The position numbers and the translations under genes are program-made. Below the pieces are notes generated by a model. The model saw nothing but the letters and a program-made list of their open reading frames with translations. It did no database searches and was not told the DNA's origin. From Exiguobacterium sibiricum 7-3 (GTDB taxonomy: Bacteria > Bacillota > Bacilli > Exiguobacteriales > Exiguobacteriaceae), in the NCBI RefSeq assembly GCF_000620865.1, contig NZ_KK211190.1, positions 819,971 through 883,970 on the forward strand: a DNA stretch of 64,000 bases, written 5' to 3'. Below are positions 42,960 through 43,604 of the stretch, one piece after another. Position 1 is the first letter of the stretch. Each line of letters opens with the position of its first letter.

Positions 42960-42975
42960 AATAATAATGAAGAAT

Positions 42976-43007
42976 CGCTCTACAGCAACCTGTAGAGCGT
43001 TTTCTTT
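42976..43007 (+). terminator. gapB terminator
   Basis: CGCTCTACAG (42976-42985) and CTGTAGAGCG (42990-42999) form a perfect 10-bp stem with a CAAC loop, followed by TTTTCTTT. Confidence 0.9.
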
Positions 43008-43038
43008 AAGAAAATATATTAAAATTCGAAATTTATCC

Positions 43039-43067
43039 TTGTGTATCTTTTTGATACTCGCTATAAT
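43039..43067 (+). promoter_or_regulatory. speD promoter
   Basis: TTGTGT (43039-43044), a 17-base spacer and TATAAT (43062-43067). The start should fall near 43074, giving a leader of about 145 bases. Confidence 0.78.
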
Positions 43068-43073
43068 TCAAAT

Positions 43074-43210
43074 CGTGAACTTCAATCGGTCTGGCAATCG
43101 CAGCTTAAAGGGTTAGGACCTCTCTGGACTAACTTTCCCCCGTGGGTGCGAACGACTCAGGCGCAAAGTAAGTGATCGACTACTTTGAAGACCATTGAAT
43201 GTAGGGGGGA
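43074..43210 (+). ncRNA. Structured speD leader, candidate cis-regulatory RNA
   Basis: An 11-bp closing helix joins TTCAAT-C-GGTCT (43081-43092, one bulged C) with AGACCATTGAA (43189-43199). Inside are hairpins AAAG/CTTT plus TTAG/CTAA (43107-43136), TGCG/CGCA (43147-43165) and CAAAGTA/TACTTTG (43164-43187). CCCCC at 43137-43141 could pair with the GGGGGG Shine-Dalgarno at 43204-43209. No terminator lies between leader and gene, so control would be translational. I do not recognise a known riboswitch class. Confidence 0.55.
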
Positions 43211-43217
43211 TCCACAA

Positions 43218-43604
43218 ATGGATACTATGGGAAGACACATTATTGCAGAACTTTGGGATTGTAATCCTGAAAAATTGAACGACATGGAATTTGTAGAACG
43301 ACTTTTTGTTGATGCAGCACTTCAAGCAGGTGCGGAAGTACGCGAAGTCGCATTCCATAAGTTTGCTCCACACGGCGTCAGCGGCGTCGTTATTATTTCT
43401 GAATCGCACTTAACGATTCACAGTTTCCCAGAGCATGGTTATGCATCGGTTGATGTATTTACATGTGGCGATCGAATCGATCCAGCCATCGCAGCGCATT
43501 ATATCGCTGACGGACTCGATGCGAAAATCCGTGAAAATGTCGAAATTCCACGTGGTATGGGACCTGTTGAAGTTCCAGCTGCTACGGTTCAGCACGTTAA
43601 CTGA
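43218..43604 (+). CDS. speD: S-adenosylmethionine decarboxylase proenzyme
   Basis: Makes decarboxylated SAM for spermidine synthesis. It has 128 residues, the short bacterial/archaeal class. The chain should cleave itself between Glu62 and Ser63 ([15 protein letters not shown]), turning Ser63 into the pyruvoyl cofactor. His68 and Cys83 (DVFTCGD), needed for processing and catalysis, are at the same positions as in the Thermotoga enzyme. ATG 43218 follows GTAGGGGGG; an upstream in-frame ATG at 43185 lies inside the leader helix. No spermidine synthase gene is in the window. Confidence 0.96.

Follow-up and report, generated by a model that had tools for sequence, protein, structure and literature searches.

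A candidate cis-regulatory leader RNA that precedes speD across Bacilli

Leaders of polyamine genes and the speD locus of Exiguobacterium

SpeD is an enzyme that feeds spermidine synthesis. Several pseudoknot riboswitches, including SAM-II, preQ1 and SAM-V, act by hiding the Shine-Dalgarno (SD) sequence. Convincing polyamine riboswitches are recent and consist of rare SAM-I variants (PMC10853860), among them a spermidine riboswitch that precedes speD and speE in some Gram-positive bacteria and for which end-product feedback has been proposed (PMC10853860). Two further RNA motifs are tied to polyamine-related genes: odc1, which contains a uORF and precedes an ornithine decarboxylase gene, and the potE motif, which lies ~200 nt 5' of its gene. 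For neither is a position before speD described (PMC8632094). In B. subtilis, co-immunoprecipitation with Hfq enriched a 79-nt peak listed as 'Unknown or speD leader region', a stable leader fragment, in a study whose peaks in already known regulatory leaders lay at aptamer domains (PMC3574147). That peak was reported as a peak alone, without structure, family or function, and it was the only report on a speD leader, motif, riboswitch or feedback that we found in the open-access literature. The main text of the bacterial RNA-motif surveys that we searched does not describe this leader.

The leader analysed here lies within the window, a 64,000-nucleotide stretch of the Exiguobacterium sibiricum 7-3 genome. 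Sequence comparison showed that the leader and speD of the window are near-identical to Exiguobacterium records. The 5' neighbours of the speD promoter are gapB and its terminator (42976-42999), and speE is likewise encoded in this genome. The leader thus shares both its gene and its gapB-speD intergenic position with the B. subtilis Hfq peak (PMC3574147), and from this matching gene order we infer that B. subtilis carries the motif. In strain 168, the gapB-speD region concerned is at about 2966841-2966919. The features of the locus are as follows.

43039 to 43067, forward strand: speD promoter, TTGTGT, 17 nt, TATAAT (read from the sequence)
43074 to 43217, forward strand: whole speD leader RNA, ~143 nt (promoter position; conserved in the Exiguobacterium family and many other Bacilli)
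43081 to 43092, forward strand: 5' strand of closing helix P1, with C43087 bulged (fold; matched-versus-swapped complementarity)
43189 to 43199, forward strand: 3' strand of P1 (fold; matched-versus-swapped complementarity)
43098 to 43104, forward strand: 5' strand of P2a, UCGCA-G-C, with G43103 opposite G43146 (covariation; R1 match)
43145 to 43151, forward strand: 3' strand of P2a (covariation; R1 match)
43105 to 43144, forward strand: near-invariant core within P2a, comprising UUAAA, GGG at 43110-43112, P3, the C-run and GUG (pattern search of Bacilli genomes)
43137 to 43141, forward strand: C-run CCCCC, putative anti-SD (SD-complementary in every member; folds)
43164 to 43187, forward strand: 7-bp hairpin CAAAGUA/UACUUUG, at the place that P4 takes in other lineages (fold; covariation of P4 among diverged members)
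43204 to 43209, forward strand: SD sequence GGGGGG (conserved among distinct leaders)
43218 to 43604, forward strand: speD, S-adenosylmethionine decarboxylase, the putatively regulated gene (TIGR03330, E 1.2e-40)

Like the spermidine riboswitch, this leader precedes a polyamine gene; however, the spermidine riboswitch has the SAM-I fold (PMC10853860), whereas the speD leader has its own core and gave no SAM match in Rfam. At gathering thresholds, Rfam 15 contained no family over the leader, and at E<=10 the region 42960-43300 returned sub-threshold, chance-level matches only, with no riboswitch family among them. RF00162, which covers SAM-I and the spermidine riboswitch, had no match in this region at either setting and none at the gathering threshold in 20 other speD loci, and no covariance model for SAM-II, SAM-III/SMK or another Rfam riboswitch matched the leader. 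The original prediction had recognised no described class, and the search bears this out. A T-box leader (RF00230) at 2535-2736 on the forward strand, with 133.6 bits, is the sole Rfam match in the window; a T-box identity for the speD leader was rejected, as the only T-box lies there and the leader lacks a terminator. The proposed architecture resembles SAM-II, preQ1 and SAM-V in its putative H-type pseudoknot, its use of the SD as a strand of the second stem and its presumed translational control, but differs from them in that Rfam does not match it and in that a hairpin, together with a G-run in competition for the C-run, lies in its first loop. Pending the subscription literature, we rate the speD leader as a new cis-regulatory RNA family of a known kind.

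Promoter, fold and pairing options of the leader

The promoter elements TTGTGT (43039-43044) and TATAAT (43062-43067) were found where the original prediction had placed them, though the -35 box agrees with the consensus at only 3/6 positions. They set the speD transcription start at approximately 43074/43075, which yields a leader of 143 nt where about 145 had been predicted, with correct coordinates. Because the -35 box is weak, a generic promoter scan misses this promoter; relatives carry TTGCAA-17-TATACT at the same position. The string UCGU(GAAC) at the predicted start (window 43073-43083) is kept in distant genera, and its conservation may reflect the promoter, 5'-end stability or P1. 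A terminator scan found none within the leader, as had been claimed, and its sole hit, at 42976-42999, lies 3' of gapB. The lack of a terminator points to control of translation rather than attenuation, and a transcription attenuator was rejected on this ground.

In the window, P1 comprises 11 pairs, which join 43081-43086 to 43194-43199 and 43088-43092 to 43189-43193. The internal hairpins that had been proposed correspond to P2/P3 (43098-43151), in which P3 pairs 43111-43116 with 43129-43134, and to the hairpin at 43164-43187. A covariance model, R1, matched positions 43097-43152 with an E value of 9e-20, the window sequence itself being among the members of the model. The minimum free energy (MFE) of the leader was no better than that of shuffled sequences (z = +0.76). 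Thermodynamic stability was therefore dropped as proof of a structured RNA, and comparative evidence was needed, which proved decisive. Around the start codon, an AUCC..GGAU hairpin spans window positions 43210-43223, with AUCC..AUGGAU present in Exiguobacterium and Halobacillus, and a CCGAAAG-AUG..-CUUUCGG hairpin occupies the same place with another sequence in speD genes of the Paenibacillales type, a label that we inferred for the sampled genomes. Such hairpins may add a further regulatory layer.

The C-run can pair either with GGG at 43110-43112, as it does in the MFE fold of the window, or with the SD, and these pairings are mutually exclusive. The two folds are near in energy: the pseudoknot-compatible fold has -38.8 kcal/mol, to which the pseudoknot stem would add approximately -11 kcal/mol before loop cost, compared with -40.2 kcal/mol for the plain MFE. 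The capacity of the C5 run to pair with the G6 SD had been predicted from the window, and complementarity between the two was found in essentially every member. GGGGG precedes the speD start in 170/172 distinct leaders, the start being mis-called in the other two, and GGAGG precedes it in four of the distinct leaders. In a few diverged lineages, the C-run and the SD have changed together: CUCCUCU accompanies AGAGGGG (L315) or AGGGGAG (L329), CUCCUC accompanies GAGGGG (L317 and others), CUCCU accompanies AGGAG (L333) and UUCCCUC accompanies GGGGGAA (L304 and others). Permutation of the partners among 46 representatives, diverged as well as canonical, was not significant (matched -12.3 versus swapped -12.0 +/- 0.2; 153/2000), because G.U pairs make many C-run/SD combinations workable. 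Judged by position and conservation, the putative pairing between C-run and SD is well supported, though not proven. Five genomes of family f12 (G126, G136, G156, G186 and G216) each encode two speD paralogs with their own leaders, one with CCCCC/GGGGG and the other with CUCCUC/GAGGGG.

Conservation, distribution and covariation

All 38 of the Exiguobacterium-family genomes sampled contain speD together with the leader core. Compared with L058, the leader of the window is identical at 135/144 positions, as opposed to 73/124 third codon positions of speD and 45/103 positions of the DNA 5' of the promoter, so that within Exiguobacterium the leader is more conserved than the third codon positions of its gene. 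The same leader lies 5' of speD in Pontibacillus, Halobacillus, Fictibacillus, Gottfriedia, Alkalihalobacillus, Evansella, Thalassobacillus, Virgibacillus and others, and the core (GGGUUAGGACCUCNNNGGACUAACUUNCCCCC) was present in 80/80 of the best 80 SpeD matches. We searched 400 sampled Bacilli genomes with the pattern GGGTTAGGACCTCNNNGGACTAACTTNCCCCC, allowing <=3 mismatches, and obtained a single match in each of 180 genomes, which represent 79 of 145 genera; a reversed control pattern had 0 matches in the same genomes. SpeD, as a TIGR03330 match, is encoded in 294/400 of them. Comparison of the tables by eye showed that every genome with the core pattern has SpeD except G279, in which the contig stops 23 nt 3' of the core (L151). 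The core lies directly 5' of speD in 238/239 loci, on the same strand and 48-85 nt before the SpeD start; some genomes are represented more than once among these loci, which comprise 172 distinct leaders.

Covariance models extended the family to diverged members. R1 identified the leader in 10/45 pattern-negative SpeD genomes and, at full sensitivity on individual loci, in six more (G056, G058, G092, G106, G119 and G130), and a second model, R2, identified a diverged leader in 59/79 pattern-negative SpeD genomes. The total is at least 255/400 Bacilli genomes, 75 of which were added by the models; these counts are lower bounds because neither model covers the whole family, and R2 at whole-genome settings misses the Exiguobacterium copy. 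Outside Bacilli, the leader was found in 6/9 genomes of one family, f108, and at the one locus read there (L336) it lies directly 5' of the gene for a SpeD that is 75% identical to the Paenibacillales type. Among 91 genomes of the phylum, R2, which is blind to the Exiguobacterium form, matched one Bacilli member and f108 only. Sequence comparison thus indicates that the speD leader is an ancient RNA family common across Bacilli and beyond Exiguobacterium. As a candidate RNA, the leader is indeed conserved and covaries across relatives, but its reach is far wider than the genus.

The P2 arm covaries across genera. In 63 distinct canonical sequences, 7/8 pairs of P2a had changed on both sides, and the number of double-change cells was 114, compared with 47.9 +/- 6.0 after shuffling (0/500) and far over every slid version of the helix. 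The innermost part of P2a takes the forms CUAC/GUAG, UCAC/GUGA, ACAC/GUGU, UUAC/GUAA, CAGC/GUUG and more. P3 was paired in 99.4% of these 63 canonical sequences, and its compensatory variants replace GGUUAG/CUAACU with GGUUGG/CUAACC or, in a diverged member, with GGGUGGG/CUCACUU. One leader, L244 (G057), contains a long hairpin-capable insertion in the apical loop of P3, with the remaining core intact. In the diverged alignment A5, 13/15 pairs of P2b, P2a and P4 were double-changed, compared with 5.3 +/- 1.4 after shuffling (0/500) and at most 7 in slid versions; A5 leans toward the proposed structure because the alignment was fitted to the model.

The sequence of the closing helix differs by lineage: UUCAAUcGGUCU/AGACCAUUGAA in Exiguobacterium, CUUCUGAAU/AUUUAGAAG in Halobacillus and UGAAcUUCUU/AAGAAUUCA in other Bacillaceae-like genomes. 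Complementarity between its strands across 45 representatives was nevertheless maintained (matched -8.67 versus swapped -7.16 +/- 0.30 kcal/mol; 0/1000). The predicted 11-bp helix is therefore real, but it is not universal. The canonical core is near-invariant in Bacillaceae and Exiguobacterium and eroded in members of the Paenibacillales type, which conserve GGAACCAG/GACGYAGGUCC and P4 instead. Since R2 also matches some leaders with the canonical core (L131, L144 and L156), the canonical and diverged ends form one family, and its universal part is the P2 arm with the enclosed C-run. Overall, the check on relatives that had been proposed found that P2, P2a, P2b and P4 covary and that the complementarity of P1 is kept; the leader has the fixed position before one gene and the covarying helices of a cis-regulatory structured leader.

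A putative translational switch and its signal

Conservation, covariation, the complementarity of C-run and SD, and the lack of an Rfam match all support the predicted role of this RNA in control of speD translation, and we consider that the leader is probably a cis-acting switch on SpeD translation. In the proposed mechanism, P2a would enclose a loop in which hairpin P3 is accompanied by the C-run as anti-SD. In the open state, the C-run would pair with the 5'-side G-run of P3, which would leave the SD free. In the closed state, the C-run and SD would form an H-type pseudoknot, and initiation would be blocked. Such an exchange of the C-run between the two partners presumably occurs in the cell, where a SAM/spermidine-pathway metabolite may choose between the pairings, in line with the SAM or polyamine ligand that the original prediction had suggested. 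The leader occurs before SpeD proteins that are only ~38-41% identical and, in some genomes, before both paralogs, and it is missing where another reading frame directly precedes speD, apparently in one operon, a distribution that fits control by the state of the pathway. In three such loci (L253, L264 and L265), leaderless speD lies directly 3' of a frame with a PLP-dependent-decarboxylase-like C-terminus (PPGIPILMAGE).

The fullest form of this reading, in which the leader is a new and widespread Bacilli riboswitch class that senses spermidine or decarboxylated SAM (dcSAM) and uses the pseudoknot to close the ribosome site of speD, stands just short of an even chance in our estimation. The erosion of the canonical core in members of the Paenibacillales type, which would be unusual for one aptamer, was counted against a single aptamer. 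Of the candidate signals, we tentatively place spermidine end-product feedback ahead of the others because a SAM-I variant already acts in this manner before speD and speE elsewhere (PMC10853860), whereas dcSAM and SAM, taken together, are unlikely.

The same pathway link could suggest that the leader has diverged from within a known SAM or spermidine class (a SAM-I variant, SAM-II or SAM-III/SMK), particularly as the SAM-I-variant riboswitch also precedes speD and speE (PMC10853860). We consider this very improbable, given that no SAM-family model matched the leader even at E<=10 or, at the gathering threshold, any of 20 loci whose leaders have diverged or are lacking, and that the layout here is a single long arm with the C-run in its loop. 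A more serious competitor, though still somewhat unlikely, is a protein that binds the P2/P3 core, either SpeD itself or some other RNA-binding protein, and turns speD translation down or up. The exclusive tie to one gene and the long near-invariant sequence, as found at some protein sites, are in keeping with a bound protein, as is the co-purification of a speD leader fragment with B. subtilis Hfq; however, the authors of that report suggest non-specific association of riboswitch-like leaders (PMC3574147), and autoregulation by SpeD is disfavoured by the low identity among the SpeD proteins that the leader precedes.

Polyamines might also act passively, with polyvalent cations in general stabilising the pseudoknot so that high spermidine lowers speD translation without a specific pocket. 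General knowledge of RNA folding leads one to expect cation sensitivity of an SD-closing pseudoknot, and the link to the pathway is direct, but a near-invariant 32-nt core over the whole class exceeds what a generic cation effect needs, and we regard this explanation as quite unlikely. Exiguobacterium leaders contain a 13-codon open GTG frame, which raises translational attenuation through a short leader-encoded peptide; the frames and peptides vary among lineages, some leaders have none, and the uORF attenuator was rejected as scarcely credible since no frame or peptide was conserved among the lineages compared.

When the class is sampled evenly, the speD leader is present in most of the Bacilli that have SpeD, yet it has no family in Rfam 15. 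If the leader is a riboswitch, it would be, for a group studied so well, one of the more widely distributed orphan classes, and it could reveal how Bacilli set their supply of spermidine. Should it sense spermidine or dcSAM, it would represent a previously unnoticed feedback control of spermidine synthesis in Bacilli.
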